Source of the DNA: Schauerella fraxinea
GTDB taxonomy: Bacteria; Pseudomonadota; Gammaproteobacteria; Burkholderiales; Burkholderiaceae_B
DNA length: 64,000 bases
Direction: 5' to 3'
Assembly: GCA_030849965.1 (NCBI GenBank)
Contig: JAVDKL010000001.1
Coordinates: forward strand, 2,896,554 to 2,960,553
This document shows positions 33,489 to 42,083 of the stretch, one piece after another. A model generated the notes under the pieces. The model saw nothing but the letters and a program-made list of their open reading frames with translations. It did not search any database and had not been told where the DNA came from. Position numbers and translations under genes: made by a program. The number at the start of each line of letters is the position of its first letter. The stretch's first letter is position 1.

Positions 33489-34310
33489 TCAGAACCCGGC
33501 GGGCGCGTTGGCCAGAATCGTCTGCGCCAGCACGTACACCGGGCGGTCGACCAACTTGCCGTCGACCGCAATGGCGCCCAGGCCTTGGGCGGCAACCGCT
33601 TCATGCACCCGTCGCGCCCAAGCCACTTCTTCGGCGCTGGGCGCAAACCCCGCGTTGATGCCGGCGACCTGCTTGGGATGCACGCACAGCTTGGCGCCAA
33701 AGCCGAAGCGGCGCGCGCGCCGCACGTCGGCCGTCAAGCCATCCAGATCGTCCAACGCCAGCGACACACCATCTACCGGCGGCAGCACGTCTGCCAAACG
33801 GGACGCCATCACCAGCTGACTGCGCACCAGATCGAGCGCATCGCCATCGCCGCTCGTGCCGGCGTCGGCATTGAAGTCCACAGACCCGAACGCCAACCGC
33901 TGCACCTTCGCCTGACTGGCGAGGGCGCGCGCAATATCCCATCCCTTGACGGTTTCGATCAGCGGCACGATCAATTGATCGGCGCGCAGATGCGACGCCA
34001 GCGCCTTGAGCACGTCCGTGTCCTGCGACTTGGGCATCATCACGGCATGCACCGCCGCGTTGCCGACGATGGCGCAGTCGCGCGCAAACCAGGCCGTGTC
34101 TTCGGTATTGATGCGAACGAGGATCTGAGGACCGGCCACCGCACCCCGTGCGTCCAACCATGCCGCCACAGATTCGCGCGCTGCGTCCTTGCGATCGGGC
34201 GCCACGGCGTCTTCCAGATCGAGGATGATGGCGTGCGCGCCGGCGGCAGCGGCCTTGTCGAAACGTTCCGGACGATCGCCGGGTACGAAGAGGTAGCTAC
34301 GGGGGGTCAT
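33489..34310 (-). CDS. CitE-like CoA-ester lyase (HpcH/HpaI aldolase superfamily)
   Basis: 273 residues. The family opening RSYLFVPGDRPERFDKA and LDLEDAVAPDRK (31-40) binds CoA. Arg66 (RINTED), Glu119 (LIETVKG) and Asp145 (FGSVDFNAD) are the substrate and Mg ligands. Family members include citrate lyase beta subunits, malyl-CoA, beta-methylmalyl-CoA and (3S)-citramalyl-CoA lyases. No citD or citF is nearby, so a true citrate lyase is unlikely. With a CoA-transferase, acyl-CoA dehydrogenase and MaoC hydratase in the same eight-gene run, a citramalyl-CoA or malyl-CoA lyase yielding acetyl-CoA plus an oxo acid is the best guess. The start is at 34310, not the upstream in-frame ATG at 34439. Confidence 0.85.
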   Translation of the reverse strand: MTPRSYLFVPGDRPERFDKAAAAGAHAIILDLEDAVAPDRKDAARESVAAWLDARGAVAGPQILVRINTEDTAWFARDCAIVGNAAVHAVMMPKSQDTDVLKALASHLRADQLIVPLIETVKGWDIARALASQAKVQRLAFGSVDFNADAGTSGDGDALDLVRSQLVMASRLADVLPPVDGVSLALDDLDGLTADVRRARRFGFGAKLCVHPKQVAGINAGFAPSAEEVAWARRVHEAVAAQGLGAIAVDGKLVDRPVYVLAQTILANAPAGF

Positions 34311-34395
34311 GCAGTCTCCTTTTATTGATTCAACGAATGCGGCTGCGGGGGAAGTTCGCCGGGGCTGACGTTTTATCTGTGCCAATGCCCCTGAT

Positions 34396-35628
34396 CTATT
34401 CGCCAGCGGAAGCGGTGGGTGCGGAAGCCGCCGGCACAAACGCCTTCCGAAAGCCCAGGGTCAACGCGAAACAGAGCGCGGCCGGCACGATCAACGAGGC
34501 ATAGGCCAGGCCATAACTGCCGGCGGCACTGGCGATCGCGCCGAATATCGGCGGCCCCACCACCACGCCCAAAAACGTAAATGCCAGCGCGCCGCCCGTG
34601 GCGACGCTGGTCTGTCCCGCCGGCGCCTGGCGTGCAACTTCGGCGAGGTACACACCATTCCAGCCGATGGCACTGGCGCCGAACACAGACAGCACGACCA
34701 GCAGCAACACCGTGGACGTGCCGGGCACCATGAACGCCGTGGCCAAGCCGCTCAAGGCCACGAGCGCAGCCAGTACCGCGAGCATGCGGGGCGCCCCCAG
34801 ATAGCGATCCGAAATGTATCCCCAGACCAGTCGACCGGTTACCCCAGCCAATTGCGACACGGCGAGAATGAAGCCGGCCGTGACGAGATTGATCAGTAAA
34901 TCTTCATGCAGGAACGTCGCCACATACGTGGTGAGCGAGAGTTGGATAATGGACAGCAAGAACGAACACGCCGCCAGCACCGCCAGACTGCGGCGGCTCA
35001 ACACCAGACGGATCGGGCCCCAAAAACCGCGTCCGAACGACACGGGGTGCGCGGGATCGCGATCGCTGTCGAGGCTGCCGCACAGGGGTTGCACGGCGGC
35101 CGCACACACCAGCGACGCCACGGCGACGGCAGCAAATGCCCATTGCCAGCCGATCAGCACCTGCAGCCCCGGCACGATCGCACCGGCCAGCATGCCGCCC
35201 AGGGGCACGCCCGTTTGCTTGATCGAAAACACCAATGACATGCGATGCGCCGGCGTATTGCGAATCAGCAGATGCGAACTGGCGGGCGTGATCGGCCCGT
35301 AACCGAAACCGATCAGCGCGGCACCCAGCACCATGGTCGGTACGTACGGCAACGTACACAGCAGCAACCCGATGGCGCACAACACCAGGCCGATCTGGCT
35401 CAGTCGAATCGCGCCGTAGCGCCGCACCGCCCCACCCGCGACCAGGCTCGCCACCATCGCACCGGCATAGACGATCGCCACATACAGGCCCACGTAGGCG
35501 GGCGAGACGCCCATGGCCAACGCCACCACCGGCGCAATCACGGGCAACGTCAATAACGCCATGGCCACGAGCGACTGCACCATCGTCGTGGCCACCAGAA
35601 CGATCCACCCCGAGGGTTCGCGTGTCAT
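34396..35628 (-). CDS. Major facilitator superfamily transporter of the catabolic cluster
   Basis: 410 residues with about 12 membrane segments. The loop GAVRRYGAIRLSQIG stands where motif A is expected, and PITPASSHLLIRNTPAHRMSLVFSIKQ (two pieces) resembles the sugar-acid/cyanate-type subfamily. The ATG at 35628 overlaps the GntR gene stop by 4 bp (ATGA), so a longer frame to 35685 is rejected. As it is coupled to a regulator inside a catabolic cluster that also has a Bug receptor, it probably imports the cluster's substrate or a related acid. The substrate is not known. Confidence 0.82.
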   Translation of the reverse strand: MTREPSGWIVLVATTMVQSLVAMALLTLPVIAPVVALAMGVSPAYVGLYVAIVYAGAMVASLVAGGAVRRYGAIRLSQIGLVLCAIGLLLCTLPYVPTMVLGAALIGFGYGPITPASSHLLIRNTPAHRMSLVFSIKQTGVPLGGMLAGAIVPGLQVLIGWQWAFAAVAVASLVCAAAVQPLCGSLDSDRDPAHPVSFGRGFWGPIRLVLSRRSLAVLAACSFLLSIIQLSLTTYVATFLHEDLLINLVTAGFILAVSQLAGVTGRLVWGYISDRYLGAPRMLAVLAALVALSGLATAFMVPGTSTVLLLVVLSVFGASAIGWNGVYLAEVARQAPAGQTSVATGGALAFTFLGVVVGPPIFGAIASAAGSYGLAYASLIVPAALCFALTLGFRKAFVPAASAPTASAGE

Positions 35629-36455
35629 TTTGCAGCCTTGCGTGCACCGGCTTCGGCCACGGCTTCGGCGCCGGCCATCTGCCAATCGCGCTGAAAGGTG
35701 GTGGTGTAGTGAAAACGATCGGCAGGATGCACACTGGTCGTGTGTTCGATCAACTGGCCGCGCCGATTGCGGTAGCGGCGCACCACCTTCAGACCGGCGC
35801 TATGCAGCGGTGCATCCAGACTGGTCGCAGCGTCGCGATCCAGCAGCACCGCGCGAATCTCTTGCTCGACCGAACCGATCGACTCGCCGAATTGTTCTTC
35901 GACGATGGCATGCACGGCGCGATCGAGCCGGCCATTCAGTCCCTTGATCGACCGAAATGCCGGATGCAGCCACAGCTCGGTCACACAGATCGGCAACGCC
36001 TGACCGCTCGTGAATCGGCGGCCGTGCATGTGCAGCCACGTCTCGCCGCGCGAGCCCTCGAGCATCTCCGCCTGCGCGGCCTCGATCTCCACCGTCTCGC
36101 GGCGGTCAATCGACAACGTGGTATCGGTGGCGTACTGATACAGATCGGCCACGCCAGTGATGTTCTGGTTGTAGCTTGCGTTGGCGGTGCGGGCGCACAC
36201 GCGCGTGCCCACGCCGGGTTGCCGCACCACCATCCCCAACTGCACGAGCCGCTTGACGGCCTCGCGGGCGGTAAAGCGGCTCACGCCGAACTGCTCGCAT
36301 AGATCGAACTCGGTGGGCACCAGCGCCCCGATGGGGTACTTGCCCGATTCGATCTCGTTGTACAGCGTCTGTGCCAGTTGCAGGTAGCGCGGTTGCGCGC
36401 CGGTGAGGCCCGGCGTGCGCCCGGTGGGAATAGGAGAAGTAAGGCGTGTGGCCAT
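35625..36455 (-). CDS. GntR-family (HutC/UTRA) transcriptional regulator
   Basis: 276 residues. The winged helix-turn-helix is at about 22-92 (GALVPTEFDLCEQFGVSRFT, AREAVKRLVQLGMVVRQPG and GVGTRV). It is followed by a UTRA ligand-binding domain from about 115 to 260 containing WLHMHGRRFTSGQALPI and IVEEQFGESI. HutC-type regulators usually repress a catabolic operon until its substrate or an intermediate binds. The gene lies inside the cluster, 59 bp after the CoA-transferase gene and overlapping the MFS gene. A TTTGT-N4-ACAAA palindrome just downstream of the cluster promoter -10 is a candidate operator. Confidence 0.9.
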   Translation of the reverse strand: MATRLTSPIPTGRTPGLTGAQPRYLQLAQTLYNEIESGKYPIGALVPTEFDLCEQFGVSRFTAREAVKRLVQLGMVVRQPGVGTRVCARTANASYNQNITGVADLYQYATDTTLSIDRRETVEIEAAQAEMLEGSRGETWLHMHGRRFTSGQALPICVTELWLHPAFRSIKGLNGRLDRAVHAIVEEQFGESIGSVEQEIRAVLLDRDAATSLDAPLHSAGLKVVRRYRNRRGQLIEHTTSVHPADRFHYTTTFQRDWQMAGAEAVAEAGARKAAK

Positions 36456-36514
36456 AGCGTCGCGTCGCCGCGGTCGTTGTCTTGACGGAAGTGCTGTCGC
36501 GGCGGCGCCGTCGC

Positions 36515-37726
36515 TCAGATGGCCGAGCTGGCGCGAAGTGCCGCGATGGCTTCTGCATCGTAACCTGCCTCAGCCAGAATCTCTTCGCTGTGCTCGCCCA
36601 ACGTGGGTGCGGGCCGATCGGGCCAGCCCCCGGCCCGCACGGGCGACGCCACCGTTTTGATCGGCCCGCTCGGATGCTGCAACGTCAACACGTTTTCACG
36701 TTCGGCCACGAAGGGATTGTCCAACGCTTCAGCCACGGTGTACACGGGCGATGCCGGCACGCGGCCCGCGAAGCGCTTCATCCAGGTCTCGGTGGTGTCC
36801 GACGACAACACCGCATCCAGATCTTCGGTGAGTTGATCGCGATGCGCCAGGCGTGCCTTGAAATCGACGTAATCGCCGCCCTGCGCCCACTCGGGCTTGC
36901 CGATCGCCTCGCACAGCACAGGCCAGAATTTTTCCTTATTGCACATCAGGAAAATCCAGCCGTCTTTCGTGCGGTACAGCTGGCTGGGCGTGAGCGACGG
37001 ATGGCTCGATCGCTTCTCGCGTCCGATTTCCACGCCCTTGTTCAGGTACCAGGTGGCCACATACGTCAGATTGTGCAAGGCCACGTCGAACAGGCTCACA
37101 TCCACATCGCGTCCGATACCGGTGGCACGCGCCCCGATCACGCCGGCAAGCAGCCCCATGGCGGCCGTCGTGCCGGTCATGAAATCGATCATCGACAGGC
37201 CCATGCGTGATGGCGGTCCGTCGGCCTCGCCCGTTACCGAGAGATACCCCGCTTCGGCCTGCATCAGATAGTCGTAACCTGGCCACGCCGCGCGCGAACC
37301 CTCGCGGCCATAGGCCGACAAGTGCCCGCACACCAGTTGCGGATTCACATCTTTCAGATCGGCGTAGGTGAGTCCGAGCTTGGCCGGCAGATCGCCGCGC
37401 AGGTTGTTGAACACCACATCGGCATCGGCCGCCAATCGCCGCAGCACCTCGCGCGCCTCGGGCGCCTTGAGATTGAGCGTCAGGCTTTTCTTGTTGCGGT
37501 TGAACGATTGGTAGAAGTGGCTATCGCCGGGGCCGAAGTAATGCGGTCCCACGACACGGCCCACGTCTCCCCCGTCGCCCGGGTTCTCGATCTTGATGAC
37601 CTCTGCGCCAAGATCCGCCAGGTGTTGCGTGCCGAACGGTCCGGCGCCGTATTGCTCGATGGCGATGATGCGCACGCCAGCCAGAGGCAACGGCAGCGTG
37701 ACGGCCTGCGATTGGGGGGCATTCAT
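36515..37726 (-). CDS. CaiB/BaiF (class III) CoA-transferase of the catabolic cluster
   Basis: 403 residues. The N-terminal Rossmann region is GVRIIAIEQYGAGPFGTQHL with GAEVIKIENP, followed by SFNRNKKSLTLNLKAPEARE. The catalytic Asp is likely in RMGLSMIDFMTGTTAAMG. Related enzymes activate dicarboxylic acids (mesaconate, itaconate, methylsuccinate, oxalate) with succinyl-CoA or another CoA donor. It overlaps the acyl-CoA dehydrogenase gene by 4 bp, so the two products are made together. That supports CoA activation followed directly by dehydrogenation. The substrate is inferred from context only. Confidence 0.87.
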   Translation of the reverse strand: MNAPQSQAVTLPLPLAGVRIIAIEQYGAGPFGTQHLADLGAEVIKIENPGDGGDVGRVVGPHYFGPGDSHFYQSFNRNKKSLTLNLKAPEAREVLRRLAADADVVFNNLRGDLPAKLGLTYADLKDVNPQLVCGHLSAYGREGSRAAWPGYDYLMQAEAGYLSVTGEADGPPSRMGLSMIDFMTGTTAAMGLLAGVIGARATGIGRDVDVSLFDVALHNLTYVATWYLNKGVEIGREKRSSHPSLTPSQLYRTKDGWIFLMCNKEKFWPVLCEAIGKPEWAQGGDYVDFKARLAHRDQLTEDLDAVLSSDTTETWMKRFAGRVPASPVYTVAEALDNPFVAERENVLTLQHPSGPIKTVASPVRAGGWPDRPAPTLGEHSEEILAEAGYDAEAIAALRASSAI

Positions 37727-38883
37727 ACCGGGTTCCTTTCGATCATTTGCTTGGCGATGATGATGCGTTGCAGTTCGTTCGTGCCTTCGCCGATGGTCAG
37801 CAGCGGCGCATCGCGATACAGGCGCTCGACGTTGTATTCCTTCGAGTAGCCATAGCCGCCGAAAATACGCATCGCTTCATGCGCGTTTTCCATCGCCGCC
37901 TCGGTGGCGAAGTACTTCGCCATGCCGGCTTCCATATCCACACGTTCGCCGCGATCGAACGCTTCGGCCGCCGCATACGTCAACAGCCTCGAGGCTTGCG
38001 TGCGCGTGGCCATCTCGCCCAGCTTGAGCTGAATGGCTTGATGCTCGCAAATCGGCTTGCCGAAGGTTTTGCGCGTTTGCGAATAGGCCAACGCCTCGTC
38101 CAGCGCGGCTTGCGCCACGCCCAGGCCACGCGCGGCGACGTTGATGCGGCCGAGTTCCAGCCCGCCCAACACCTGCTGCAGACCGCGCCCTTCCACGCCG
38201 CCGATCAAACGCTCGACCGGCACCTTGTAATCCTCGAACGCCAGCGCGCACGTATCGATGCCCTTGTAGCCAAGCTTCTCGAGCTTCTTGCTCACGATGA
38301 AGCCGGGGCCTTTTTCGGCCAGCAGCAAACTCATGCCTTTGTGACGCGGTTGCGCGGTGGTATCCGTTTTCACGAGCAAGGCGATGATGTTGCCTTCCTG
38401 GCTATTGGTGATCCACATCTTGTTGCCGTTGACCACGTAGTGATCGCCGTCGCGCTTGGCCACCGTGCGGATGGCTTGCAGATCGGTGCCGCAATCGGGT
38501 TCGGTCAGGCCGATGCCGCCGCGCAATTCGCCCGTGGCAAAGCGCGGCAGGTACGACTGCTTTTGCGCTTCGGTGCCGAAGCGCTGCACAGCCATCGCCA
38601 TGATCACGTGCGAGTTGATGATGCCCGAAATCGACATCCACACCCGCGACATGCGCTCGATGATCTTGGCGTAGGTGAGCGTGGAGAGGCCCAACCCGCC
38701 GTACTCGGGATCGATCATGCAGCCGAACAAGCCCATCTCTTTCATCTTCTCGACGATCTCATGCGGATAGATATCGTCGTGCTCGAGGTGATGGACGTGC
38801 GGCAATACCTCGACCTTCAAAAAGCGGTCGAGCATATCGAGTATCAGTGTTTCCTGTTCCTGATCGTGCATGGGTGCATTCAT
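37723..38883 (-). CDS. Acyl-CoA dehydrogenase of the catabolic cluster
   Basis: 386 residues, the normal size. It is an FAD enzyme that introduces an alpha-beta double bond and feeds electrons to ETF. The flavin-contacting GGIGLTEPDCGTDLQ and MWITNSQEGN, the RKTFGKPICEHQAIQ segment, and the C-terminal FGGYGYSKEYNVERLYRDA are present. The likely catalytic base is Glu in TIGEGTNELQR. It overlaps the CoA-transferase gene. With the MaoC hydratase and CitE-like lyase, a saturated acid such as methylsuccinate could be taken through mesaconyl-CoA or a relative. That assignment is inference. Confidence 0.9.
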   Translation of the reverse strand: MNAPMHDQEQETLILDMLDRFLKVEVLPHVHHLEHDDIYPHEIVEKMKEMGLFGCMIDPEYGGLGLSTLTYAKIIERMSRVWMSISGIINSHVIMAMAVQRFGTEAQKQSYLPRFATGELRGGIGLTEPDCGTDLQAIRTVAKRDGDHYVVNGNKMWITNSQEGNIIALLVKTDTTAQPRHKGMSLLLAEKGPGFIVSKKLEKLGYKGIDTCALAFEDYKVPVERLIGGVEGRGLQQVLGGLELGRINVAARGLGVAQAALDEALAYSQTRKTFGKPICEHQAIQLKLGEMATRTQASRLLTYAAAEAFDRGERVDMEAGMAKYFATEAAMENAHEAMRIFGGYGYSKEYNVERLYRDAPLLTIGEGTNELQRIIIAKQMIERNPV

Positions 38884-38986
38884 GATGGTTTCCGTCGATT
38901 CGATGATTCGTGATGAGGTGCGCTGGTCGAGGGTTTCGTTCGGCCGCGCTTCCTGGGTGTGTTCCTGACTGCCTCTGCTTGCTGCG

Positions 38987-40417
38987 CTATTGCGCGCGTT
39001 CGCCCAGAAGACGCATCAGATCGCGCGTGCCGCCGGTCGCGATGCCGAGCACGGCGCGCTCGATCGCTTGCGCACGGTCGCGCGACACGGCGCGTGCCGC
39101 GTTCTCATGAAACTTGATGCGCACGTCGTCATCCGTGATGGGCCGGCCTGGTGCGCCGCGATTGATGTGCTCGCGGTGATGCAGCGTGCGGCCATCCGCC
39201 AGTTCGACGGTGACATCGCCCGAATAGAAACGCGGAAACTCCGCCTGCGGGTCGGCTTCGCACGTAACGCGACGCGCCAGTGCCAACGTGGCTGCATCGG
39301 TATAGGCGCTCTCTTCCAATGCATCGAGCGAGAAGCGCCCTTTCAACAAGCCGGTCGCCACCGCATAGGGAATGCTGAACTGCGCCTCATAAGCGTTGGC
39401 GGGCCGCTTCTTTTTGTCATCCGGCTCGCACACGATTTTCATCGTGCCTTCCGGCACCTTCGCCACCACACGCACGATCTCGGCCTCGCCGATCTCCGCG
39501 TGCAAGGCGCCCGACGCATCCGCGCACGCATGCACGAAATGACACGCCGGAATCGGCTTGACCGCCACGTTGAGCGTTTCCCATACCTCACCCAAGCCCG
39601 CCGTCACCAACGACAGATCGGTCTTGGCATTCAGTTCGCCCAGGTGACTGGCGTACAAGCCGAATCGGCCTTCATACGCTGCGCGCGTGCCCACGAAGCC
39701 GTGTTTGGCCAACGTGGCTGCGGTGATACCCGCGTGCGCGGCCCAGCCCGGATGAAGCCGTTTGGTCCATGCGCCATCTTGCAGAAACTCAAGGCTGCCC
39801 GACGCCATGGAAAGTACGATGCCCTGCGCGTCGCGCAGTTGATCCGCGTTGAGCTTCATCAGATGACCAGCGGCGAACGTGCAACCGAACGCACCGATGA
39901 GACCGGTGGGATGAAAGCCCACTTGATGAAAGCCGCCGCGCGCTGCCGACGCAATGCGAATCGCGATTTCTGCGCCCAGAATATAAGCGGCCAGCACGTC
40001 GGCGCCGCTGGCGTCGTGGGCCGCGCCCACGCTCAATGCAGCCGGCAACACCGACGCGGTGGCGTGAATCACGCCGCTGGGATGCGTGTCGTCGTAGTCC
40101 AGGCCATGAATCATGACGGCGTTGACGATGGCGGCATCGCGCATGGGCAGGTTGACCGCCATGCCGATCACCGGCACGCCTTTGGGGTCCTGCGCCATTG
40201 CGCCGCCCGCCAGCTCCTGCATGGCAGCCAACGTGCGGTGCGCGTAGTCGTAGCCCGTGGAGGCCAACCCGATGCCCAACGCATCGAGCATCAGGTGTGC
40301 GGCGCGCGACTGCACGTCGGATGGCACATCCGCCAATTTGAAATCTGCGGCGTAGGCCGCCAGATCGGCGGACAAGCCAGGAAGGTGTTCAGTCAGTGCG
40401 GTATCTGCGTGTGTCAT
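38987..40417 (-). CDS. MmgE/PrpD family protein
   Basis: 476 residues. The family includes 2-methylcitrate dehydratase PrpD and cis-aconitate decarboxylase (itaconate-forming). The active-site loop MIHGLDYDDTHP with Asp/His, the GSLEFLQDGAWTKRLHPGWA stretch with its Lys and His, and GFHPTGLIGAFG are all present. In this cluster it could isomerise, hydrate/dehydrate or decarboxylate a tricarboxylic or branched dicarboxylic acid ahead of CoA activation. The reaction cannot be decided from sequence. It starts 1 bp after the Bug receptor stop, and a 103-bp gap separates it from the acyl-CoA dehydrogenase gene. Confidence 0.88.
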   Translation of the reverse strand: MTHADTALTEHLPGLSADLAAYAADFKLADVPSDVQSRAAHLMLDALGIGLASTGYDYAHRTLAAMQELAGGAMAQDPKGVPVIGMAVNLPMRDAAIVNAVMIHGLDYDDTHPSGVIHATASVLPAALSVGAAHDASGADVLAAYILGAEIAIRIASAARGGFHQVGFHPTGLIGAFGCTFAAGHLMKLNADQLRDAQGIVLSMASGSLEFLQDGAWTKRLHPGWAAHAGITAATLAKHGFVGTRAAYEGRFGLYASHLGELNAKTDLSLVTAGLGEVWETLNVAVKPIPACHFVHACADASGALHAEIGEAEIVRVVAKVPEGTMKIVCEPDDKKKRPANAYEAQFSIPYAVATGLLKGRFSLDALEESAYTDAATLALARRVTCEADPQAEFPRFYSGDVTVELADGRTLHHREHINRGAPGRPITDDDVRIKFHENAARAVSRDRAQAIERAVLGIATGGTRDLMRLLGERAQ

Positions 40418-40418
40418 A

Positions 40419-41396
40419 TCAATCCACTCTCGCTCCGGACAGCTTTACGGCCTCTGCCCATTTGGTAATTTCGGCCTGTACATACGCGCGCGTTTCGTCG
40501 GGCGTCTTCAGGATGGGTTCCGCCCCCAGCGCATTCAGGGTCTTGGTCACATCAGGCTCGGCCCACACCTTCTGCAGCGTGGCATAGAGCTTGTCGATCA
40601 CCGGCTTCGGCGTCTTGGCGGGCGCCATGATGCTGATCCACGCCGGCGCGATGAAATCGCCCATGCCGGCTTCCGCCATCGTCGGTACATCCGGCACGGC
40701 GGCGTTGCGCTTTTCGCTGGCCACTGCCAGCAGACGCAGCTTGCCGCTTTGCGCGTTGCCGATCAGGGCGGGGCCCGTGTCGATCATCGCTTCCACCTGT
40801 CCACCGATCAGATCGGTGACGGCGGCGGGACTGCCCTTGTAGGGCACATGCTGCATATCGAATTGCTGCGCGTGCTTGAACAACTCCATCGTGAGATGGC
40901 TGGTCACGCCGCTGCCACCGGAGGCATAGTTGAGCTTGCCCGGTTGCGCCTTCGCCATCTTCACCAGATCGGCGGCCGTTTTCGCTTTTGAATTGTTCGT
41001 CACCGCCAGGAACAGCGGCACCACGGCGATTTCAGAGATCGACGCCAGGTCGCGCAGCGGATCGTAGGAGATGTTCTTGTACAGACTGGGATTGATGGCG
41101 AGCGGGCCGCTGGAACTCACCAGCAGCGTATACCCATCGGGCTCGGCACGGATAACTTGCTCGGTACCGATGATGCCACCGGCACCCGGCTTGTTCTCGA
41201 CCACCACGGGCTGTTTCAGGCCTTCTTCGAGCTTTTTGGCCACCAGGCGCGCAATGATGTCCGTCGCCTGGCCAGGCGGAAAGCCCACCACGATGCGTAG
41301 CGGTTTGGACGGGTAGTCGGCGGCCATCGCAGGCGCGATCGCGCCCAAACCGAGGGTGAGCGCCGTCATTGCGACGCCAATCATTTTTTTATTCAT
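40419..41396 (-). CDS. Bug/TctC-family extracytoplasmic solute receptor of the catabolic cluster
   Basis: 325 residues with a signal peptide cleaved near APAMAADYPSK. The Bug fingerprint YPSKPLRIVVGFPPGQATD, VVENKPGAGGIIGTEQV and VSSSGPLAINPSLY is complete. The start MNKKMIGVAM at 41396 gives a standard signal sequence; the in-frame 41411 start would add five residues. It should bind the cluster's acid in the periplasm. The gap to the MmgE/PrpD gene is only 1 bp and to the MaoC gene 24 bp, so it belongs to the same transcript. Confidence 0.88.
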   Translation of the reverse strand: MNKKMIGVAMTALTLGLGAIAPAMAADYPSKPLRIVVGFPPGQATDIIARLVAKKLEEGLKQPVVVENKPGAGGIIGTEQVIRAEPDGYTLLVSSSGPLAINPSLYKNISYDPLRDLASISEIAVVPLFLAVTNNSKAKTAADLVKMAKAQPGKLNYASGGSGVTSHLTMELFKHAQQFDMQHVPYKGSPAAVTDLIGGQVEAMIDTGPALIGNAQSGKLRLLAVASEKRNAAVPDVPTMAEAGMGDFIAPAWISIMAPAKTPKPVIDKLYATLQKVWAEPDVTKTLNALGAEPILKTPDETRAYVQAEITKWAEAVKLSGARVD

Positions 41397-41420
41397 TATT
41401 TGTCTCCTCATTGGCGGGGG

Positions 41421-41924
41421 TCAGTCGCCCACGCCGTGACCGCGCTTGGATACCAGGAACGTCCTTTCGAAAGTCATGATCTTGGCGCCGTCTTGATTGG
41501 TGGCGCTACTGCGTACGGTCACGATCCCCTGCTTGGGGCGCGACTTGGATTCGCGCTTGTCGAGCACTTCCGACTCGGCATACAGCGTGTCGCCGGCAAA
41601 CACGGGATGGGTAAGCGTGATGTCCTTCCAGCCCAGATTGGCCACGGCTTGCGCGCTGACGTCATTGACCGTCAGGCCCAACACGACCGCCACTGTGAGC
41701 CCGCTGCTCACCAGCAACTTGCCAAATTCGCTCTTGGCGGCATACGCAGCATCGCAATGCATGGGGTGGTAATTCATGGTCAACAACGAAAACTGAATGT
41801 TGTCGGCATCGGTAATCGTGCGTCCCGGGCGATGTTCGTACACGTCGCCCACATTGAAGTCTTCAAAGAAACGACCGTACACGGCGCGATAGCGATTGGG
41901 GGCGATTTCAACAGCGGTAATCAT
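41421..41924 (-). CDS. MaoC-family hydratase of the catabolic cluster
   Basis: 167 residues, a single hot-dog domain. The hydratase motif is GRTITDADNIQFSLLTMNYH, followed by PMHCD, in which Asn51 and His56 stand where the catalytic Asp/Asn and His of MaoC hydratases lie. The tail KRESKSRPKQGIVTVRSSATNQDG is typical of the short type seen in itaconyl-CoA and mesaconyl-CoA hydratases. First gene of the cluster, 169 bp downstream of a good promoter -10. It would hydrate an enoyl-CoA to the hydroxyacyl-CoA that the CitE-like lyase splits. Confidence 0.85.
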   Translation of the reverse strand: MITAVEIAPNRYRAVYGRFFEDFNVGDVYEHRPGRTITDADNIQFSLLTMNYHPMHCDAAYAAKSEFGKLLVSSGLTVAVVLGLTVNDVSAQAVANLGWKDITLTHPVFAGDTLYAESEVLDKRESKSRPKQGIVTVRSSATNQDGAKIMTFERTFLVSKRGHGVGD

Positions 41925-42069: not shown

Positions 42070-42083
42070 TTTGTCCGTACAAA
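42070..42083. promoter_or_regulatory. Candidate GntR operator
   Basis: TTTGTCCGTACAAA is a perfect dyad with arms TTTGT/ACAAA around a 4-base centre. It is 9 bp downstream of the -10 of the leftward promoter, where bound repressor would stop initiation. The cluster encodes a HutC-type GntR protein, whose known operators are short AT-flanked dyads of this size. Assignment is inference. Confidence 0.45.

Follow-up and report, generated by a model that had tools for sequence, protein, structure and literature searches.

The eight-gene cluster and its neighbourhood

A 64-kb window of the Schauerella fraxinea genome (contig JAVDKL010000001.1, positions 2,896,554 to 2,960,553) encodes, at positions 33489-41924 on the minus strand, a cluster of eight open reading frames (ORFs) that probably serves the breakdown of a branched five-carbon (C5) dicarboxylate. 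ORF calling across the window returned the genes in the order given by an initial annotation made from the sequence alone, and both the coordinates and Pfam agree with its description of eight families running in one direction with overlaps or short gaps. From the MaoC gene to the CitE gene, and with a palindrome added, the features are as follows (aa, amino acids; CoA, coenzyme A):

41421..41924, minus strand: MaoC-type hydratase, RipB/Ich-like, 167 aa; proposed itaconyl-/mesaconyl-C4-CoA hydratase
40419..41411, minus strand: Bug/TctC-type periplasmic receptor, 330 aa (Pfam TctC, 263 bits)
38987..40417, minus strand: MmgE/PrpD protein, 476 aa, with both Pfam domains; proposed isomerase of a 2-substituted succinate
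37723..38883, minus strand: acyl-CoA dehydrogenase (Pfam), 386 aa; proposed methylsuccinyl-CoA dehydrogenase
36515..37726, minus strand: family III (CaiB/BaiF) CoA-transferase, 403 aa (Pfam CoA_transf_3, 389 bits)
35625..36455, minus strand: GntR-UTRA transcription regulator, 276 aa (Pfam GntR and UTRA)
34396..35628, minus strand: MFS transporter, 410 aa (Pfam MFS_1, 128 bits)
33489..34313, minus strand: CitE-like lyase, 274 aa (NCBIfam RipC_Ccl, 167 bits); proposed citramalyl-CoA lyase
42070..42083: palindrome TTTGTCCGTACAAA, upstream of the MaoC gene; predicted GntR operator

Each of the eight proteins scored well over the cut-off of its best Pfam family; the start codons of the MFS and CitE genes were chosen from several possible starts. 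The spacing is operon-like, with gaps of 9, 1, 103, -4, 59, -4 and 82 bp from MaoC to CitE. In a sister genome, G001 (locus L047; G and L numbers denote genomes and fetched loci, G000 being S. fraxinea itself), the complete set of eight is found with its order unchanged, the identities ranging over 88-99% and that of the Bug receptor being 99%. Because of this and because much of the gene set recurs in other genomes, the cluster is not a chance arrangement. Searches of the window for tRNA genes and Rfam families returned no match, and a scan for consensus promoters and terminators found no more than in shuffled sequences.

Relation to the canonical itaconate/methylsuccinate genes

The itaconate/methylsuccinate cluster of Pseudomonas aeruginosa and Cupriavidus necator comprises a family III CoA-transferase, a hydratase, a CitE-type lyase, an acyl-CoA dehydrogenase and an MmgE/PrpD protein (PMC12290011); its characterized loci, here called canonical, are PA0878-PA0883 and E6A55_22580-22600, respectively (PMC12290011, PMC9875883). 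Gonner et al. (2025) showed that its MmgE/PrpD protein is an (S)-(R)-methylsuccinate isomerase (Msi), with undetectable activity toward cis-aconitate, and that its dehydrogenase acts on methylsuccinyl-C4-CoA (Mcd) (PMC12290011). De Witt et al. (2023) worked on the cluster in P. putida (PMC9875883); strain KT2440 of this species does not have the itaconate cluster by nature (PMC12290011). Since this five-enzyme combination is already characterized, the pathway drawn by the initial annotation is of a known kind. The annotation had presented the exact combination, with GntR and MFS inside, as not known to be described. This does not hold for the five enzymes; it does stand for a second, non-orthologous gene set with a GntR gene, of which no description was found in the open-licence literature (searched for the gene combination, itaconate with GntR, and methylsuccinate isomerase). 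The words 'GntR' and 'regulator' are absent from the main text of PMC12290011, and the GntR protein of PMC12051497 is unconnected with itaconate genes in the excerpt available of that paper.

Reference genes for comparison were those of P. aeruginosa PA7 (locus L122), located via the solved chain 8khl, which is 95% identical. By blastp, the window MmgE, dehydrogenase, CoA-transferase and lyase shared 30%, 34%, 32% and 38% identity, respectively, with their PA7 counterparts. Phylogeny against the characterized enzymes, which the initial annotation had suggested as a check, gave a divided outcome, with three of the proteins outside the canonical clades and the lyase inside. In maximum-likelihood trees, the dehydrogenase fell outside the 22-row Mcd branch (support 100/100) and is not an Mcd orthologue, the MmgE protein, not an Msi orthologue either, fell outside the 15-row Msi clade (100/100), the two clades being separate, and the CoA-transferase fell outside the clade of the canonical CoA-transferase Ict, of which it is not an orthologue. 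The best NCBIfam models of the CoA-transferase were those for succinate-glutarate and succinyl-CoA:mesaconate CoA-transferases, both far below cut-off.

The window hydratase is not of the type of the canonical hydratase Ich, as it gave only a weak match of 39 residues to PA7 Ich (PA0878-type, 275 aa). Its closest NCBIfam model was NF038241 RipB_Ich at 238 bits, below the cut-off of 340 bits, with the next model at 91 bits. Over 274 genomes of the class, none reached 340 bits with NF038241, ten besides S. fraxinea scored 200-250 bits and the next group reached at most 137 bits. An operon of Serratia entomophila carries a RipB-type hydratase, and a ripC mutant of this organism did not grow on itaconate plates, as reported in an excerpt of PMC9615192.

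The window lyase lay within a clade with 97/94 support (27 of the 39 rows) that holds every canonical-cluster lyase row of the maximum-likelihood tree, while three other CitE proteins of the S. fraxinea genome included in the tree (L255, L256 and L258) fell outside it. After G001, its nearest row was a Variovorax paradoxus lyase encoded beside a canonical Msi-Ict-Mcd-Ich set, 51% identical to the window protein and 45% identical to the PA7 lyase Ccl. The RipC_Ccl model (cut-off 375 bits) scored the window lyase and PA7 Ccl at 167 and 157 bits, respectively.

Among solved members of its family, the window MmgE protein showed no preference, scoring 114 bits with cis-aconitate decarboxylase (CAD), 116 bits with IDS epimerase and 117 bits with Bacillus subtilis IRG1; the sole CAD row of the MmgE tree sat on a long branch outside the window clade. 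Five of the seven Msi active-site positions (His88, His102, His152, Lys202 and Lys266, P. aeruginosa numbering) were kept in 14 window-type rows. At the position of Glu91 these rows have Asp, as do IDS epimerase and CAD, and at that of Tyr148, the proposed second base of Msi, all 14 have His. The count omits four other-copy rows (L108_7455, L113_1037, L113_8623 and L037_1100), and three of the 14 rows kept (L110, L111 and L113) come from loci whose fetched stretch contains no window-type dehydrogenase. Many neighbouring MmgE rows also have His at the Tyr148 position, which therefore marks a wider clade and not the window cluster alone. With these residues, the window MmgE protein is a possible two-base His-His isomerase. 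MmgE/PrpD genes also occur in other settings in plasmid records L063-L066.

Orthologues of the canonical genes were located at two other loci of the S. fraxinea genome. Matches to PA7 Msi in 250 genomes of the same order formed a distinct group at 59-68% identity, followed by matches at 38% or less; the S. fraxinea member (G000:C1:210329-211645, 62%) adjoins an Mcd orthologue of 80% identity in L043 (G000:C1:201000-220900). Orthologues of Ict (73%) and Ich (59%, C1:1829282-1830094) stand side by side in L239 (G000:C1:1820000-1839900). The window cluster is thus an additional set, and the view that it is simply the C. necator/P. aeruginosa cluster was rejected because the msi, mcd, ict and ich orthologues sit elsewhere.

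In 14 of the 19 family genomes with Ich that were examined, S. fraxinea included, a ccl gene lies beside ich; the count left out four more genomes with Ich (G025, G026, G027 and G036), and the ccl matches in three of the 14 (G011, G018 and G030) carry one in-frame stop. A linked ccl was not found at ich-ict in the other five of the 19, namely S. fraxinea, its sister G001, G015, G013 and G032. The window CitE gene is the best Ccl-like gene of the S. fraxinea genome, and its product is, by sequence, the best candidate for the step lost with ccl.

A second linkage group and its palindrome

Twenty fetched loci with a relative of the window dehydrogenase (window-type loci; a non-random draw that excludes the window and includes G001) were compared with 54 loci with canonical Mcd, many of them from closely related Pseudomonas and Stutzerimonas. 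Gene calls in the fetched loci were rough, made by a simple script, and identities are from tblastn. Linkage was scored within 9 kb of the dehydrogenase at thresholds of 150 (MaoC), 350 (CaiB), 380 (MmgE), 110 (GntR), 200 (MFS) and 105 bits (lyase). Window-type loci had MaoC in 15 cases, CaiB in 15, GntR in 14, a CitE-like lyase in 12, MmgE in 11 and MFS in five; a window-type MaoC was found once in the 54 canonical loci, and window-type CaiB, MmgE and GntR in none. Judged by this linkage, the genes of the window are part of a second group, spread over several proteobacterial lineages, with carriers such as Caballeronia sp. SBC1, Azospirillum sp. TSH58 and Pseudosulfitobacter pseudonitzschiae.

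The group is sparsely distributed. In an evenly drawn sample of the phylum, the window-type dehydrogenase (E <= 1e-95) occurred in eight of 398 genomes, S. fraxinea included, and the seven others had MaoC (five), CaiB (five), lyase (four), GntR (three) or window-type MmgE (one) nearby. A window-type MmgE above 450 bits was present in 9 of 399 genomes of the order, again including S. fraxinea. Only five of the eight others (L048, L108, L109, L112 and L114) have a window-type dehydrogenase in the fetched stretch; the stretches of L109, L110 and L111 are cut by contig ends.

Members of the window-type and canonical groups also occur together. On a plasmid of the actinobacterium Mycolicibacterium madagascariense (L249, 4916-8974), a hybrid itaconate/methylsuccinate-like cluster encodes a CaiB protein of Ict type (53% identity), a hydratase of Ich type (39%), a window-type CitE-like lyase (48%) and a window-type acyl-CoA dehydrogenase (52%), in this order. 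In the Pseudosulfitobacter locus L040, window-type genes are combined with a CoA-transferase that falls with Ict in the tree (100/99, on a long branch), and in L237 a RipB-type hydratase gene adjoins a canonical Mcd gene of 70% identity. Such exchanges of genes suggest that both groups carry out similar C5 chemistry.

Further genes adjoin two of the window-type clusters. On the Pseudosulfitobacter plasmid (L040, 13947-19317), they encode an acyl-CoA mutase, a cobalamin-binding protein, MeaB and a carboxyl transferase. Beside the cluster of L112 (G636:C36) are TauD-like, HpaB-like, HMGL-like and extra CaiB genes, a hint of a longer upstream pathway.

The palindrome was derived from the upstream regions of 11 loci (L048 had none). 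Of 15 other window-type loci, the sister included, 10 have its core, TGTMCGKACA, in the 400 bp preceding MaoC, where Markov resampling expects 0.0006 per 400 bp; ten of these 15 regions had been used to discover the palindrome. Of the remaining five, one (L264) has the core and L229, L230, L265 and L268 do not. Elsewhere in the stretch, the core occurs in L229, L265, L268, L108, L110 and L113, and nowhere in L230. In total, 14 of the 20 window-type loci contain it, including 12 of the 14 with GntR, compared to none of 55 canonical loci (900 kb); two loci outside the window-type group, L052 and L099, also have it.

Genome-wide, the exact core is not enriched in S. fraxinea, as seven sites were found versus six for the reversed control, and the lead toward a genome-wide GntR regulon gave nothing. 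The AT-flanked form is confined to the window site; the other six lie within predicted ORFs and lack AT flanks. The window site stands between MaoC and the next large ORF, although a 95-aa ORF was also called across it. The recurrence of the palindrome is read directly from the sequences, and TTTGTCCGTACAAA is likely the site of the window GntR protein; this role, the co-transcription of the eight genes and the direction of GntR control are predictions. If the palindrome is the GntR site, this operon would be the regulator's only target. Two TGTACGTACA palindromes, 13 bp apart, are present at G000:C1:297433-297455 in predicted reading frames and are unlike the AT-flanked operator form.

Proposed pathway, alternatives and known systems

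We consider it fairly probable that the cluster is a GntR-controlled operon with which the cell imports and degrades a C5 branched dicarboxylate, the likeliest acid being methylsuccinate, with itaconate or mesaconate entering through the same lower steps. Gene content, clades and linkage are seen in the DNA, and from them we infer the substrate and every reaction. The MFS protein, the Bug receptor or both would help to import the acid, and the MmgE/PrpD protein would invert its alpha carbon so that both stereoisomers become usable. The CaiB protein would add CoA, probably from succinyl-CoA, the acyl-CoA dehydrogenase would oxidize the resulting ester to its unsaturated form, which the RipB-type MaoC protein would hydrate to citramalyl-CoA, and the CitE-like lyase would cleave citramalyl-CoA to acetyl-CoA and pyruvate. 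The route proposed in the initial annotation, from a C5 branched dicarboxylate via a CoA ester to acetyl-CoA and pyruvate, is supported by the grouping of the CitE protein with the canonical-cluster lyases. Its suggestion that the dehydrogenase would allow entry from methylsuccinyl-CoA gains support from the combination characterized in C. necator and P. aeruginosa (PMC12290011).

Several observations weigh against this interpretation. A further methylsuccinate pathway would mostly duplicate what the genome has elsewhere in msi-mcd and ict-ich, and at the low identity of the window MmgE, dehydrogenase and CaiB proteins to those of PA7 the substrate can differ. None of the eight window proteins reaches an NCBIfam cut-off, and the NCBIfam equivalog names were for this reason rejected as labels. 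The His in place of Tyr148 departs from Msi. Nine of the 20 window-type loci lack a window-type MmgE, and eight lack a lyase within 9 kb; where lyases are present they are of mixed kind, those of L037, L040, L047 and L049 falling in the canonical clade and those of L038 and L112 outside. The canonical lyase clade also includes lyases from the uncharacterized clusters L042, L250-L252 and L254, and hence citramalyl-CoA lyase activity of the window protein is a prediction. Loss of ccl at ich-ict was only weakly associated with the presence of a window-type cluster (one-sided Fisher test, 0.037; 0.11 with one genome per genus), and G015, which has a window-type cluster and is missing ccl at ich-ict, has no lyase gene in the fetched stretch.

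A bolder form of the proposal, which we put forward tentatively and would not bet on, is that the cluster represents a third, separately assembled branched-dicarboxylate pathway beside the known genes, with its own GntR protein and operator, a His-His rather than His-Tyr MmgE isomerase, and a substrate or stereoisomer outside the reach of the known enzymes.

The most substantial competing explanation retains the chemistry and changes the acid: the substrate would be some other 2-substituted succinate, such as an alkylsuccinate with a longer chain or a carboxylated derivative, and its breakdown would give acetyl-CoA together with a 2-oxo acid that is not pyruvate, leaving methylsuccinate and itaconate to the canonical genes. 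That most of the canonical set is present in the same genome, as msi-mcd and ict-ich orthologues, leaves room for such a related acid, and the separate clades of three of the five window enzymes and the His at the Tyr148 position of the MmgE protein fit it as well. The upstream substrate may also vary, since some cluster relatives have amidase and TRAP genes and another has TauD- and HpaB-like genes. We nevertheless regard this explanation as unlikely, as the window lyase clusters with canonical-cluster lyases, parts have been exchanged with canonical itaconate genes, and no result singles out a particular other acid.

Entry from a tricarboxylate, which the initial annotation had proposed through an MmgE/PrpD protein acting as CAD and supplying itaconate to the other enzymes, is very improbable and was rejected: although the protein belongs to the family of CAD and its CAD score is about equal to those of the other top solved members, that very evenness gives CAD no edge over IDS epimerase or B. 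subtilis IRG1, the tree places the CAD row apart from the clade of the window protein, the dehydrogenase would be left without a role, and the counterpart in the known cluster, Msi, has no detectable cis-aconitate activity (PMC12290011). Equally far-fetched is a branched acyl-CoA pathway of the leucine/isovalerate kind, such as has been proposed for the mycobacterial Rv2498c-type lyase. Clusters of that kind reportedly also include acyl-CoA dehydrogenase, MaoC and CitE-like genes, but the MmgE/PrpD gene does not fit, and the L256 CitE protein of S. fraxinea, whose gene has MaoC, dehydrogenase and CaiB genes from other subfamilies close by, would be the better candidate, the window lyase falling outside its branch. 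The L256 locus (G000:C1:1533000-1552900) encodes MaoC, an acyl-CoA dehydrogenase (48% to PA7 Mcd), CaiB and CitE, in this order, with two Bug receptors.

Itaconate is an immune and fungal antimicrobial, and methylsuccinate is its reduced product. In a published survey, methylsuccinate isomerases were counted with a model that draws on a single type (PMC12290011); a second, non-orthologous set at 30% identity would probably escape that model and would widen the count of possible degraders. The set also offers a possible new MmgE/PrpD activity, its predicted GntR operator could serve in a C5 dicarboxylate sensor, and the mixed clusters show a pathway rebuilt out of interchangeable enzyme families.

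Three known systems bear comparison with the window cluster. IDS epimerase and CAD belong to the same MmgE/PrpD family, share with the window protein the five kept residues and Asp at position 91, and are about equally distant from it, but the window protein has His where the two-base mechanism uses Tyr. The Yersinia-type rip operon (ripA-ripB-ripC) resembles the cluster in its hydratase, as the RipB/Ich model NF038241 is the closest to the window protein. The window lyase, however, falls outside the branch of chain 3qll, which we take to be Yersinia RipC, and is thus not of RipC type. The window CoA-transferase is of family III by Pfam, whereas RipA belongs to another CoA-transferase family. 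The Y. pestis-like cluster is also without the dehydrogenase and the isomerase (PMC12290011). The cluster of P. aeruginosa and C. necator comes closest, with the same five enzyme kinds encoded together, lyases in one clade with that of the window and, in C. necator, a Bug-type receptor gene reported nearby (PMC12290011). It differs in that the window dehydrogenase, MmgE protein and CoA-transferase fall in other clades, the hydratase is of another type, and the window has a different gene order, a GntR gene inside and no TRAP transporter genes. On this comparison, the window cluster is a non-orthologous variant of the known itaconate/methylsuccinate pathway, built from other subfamilies.

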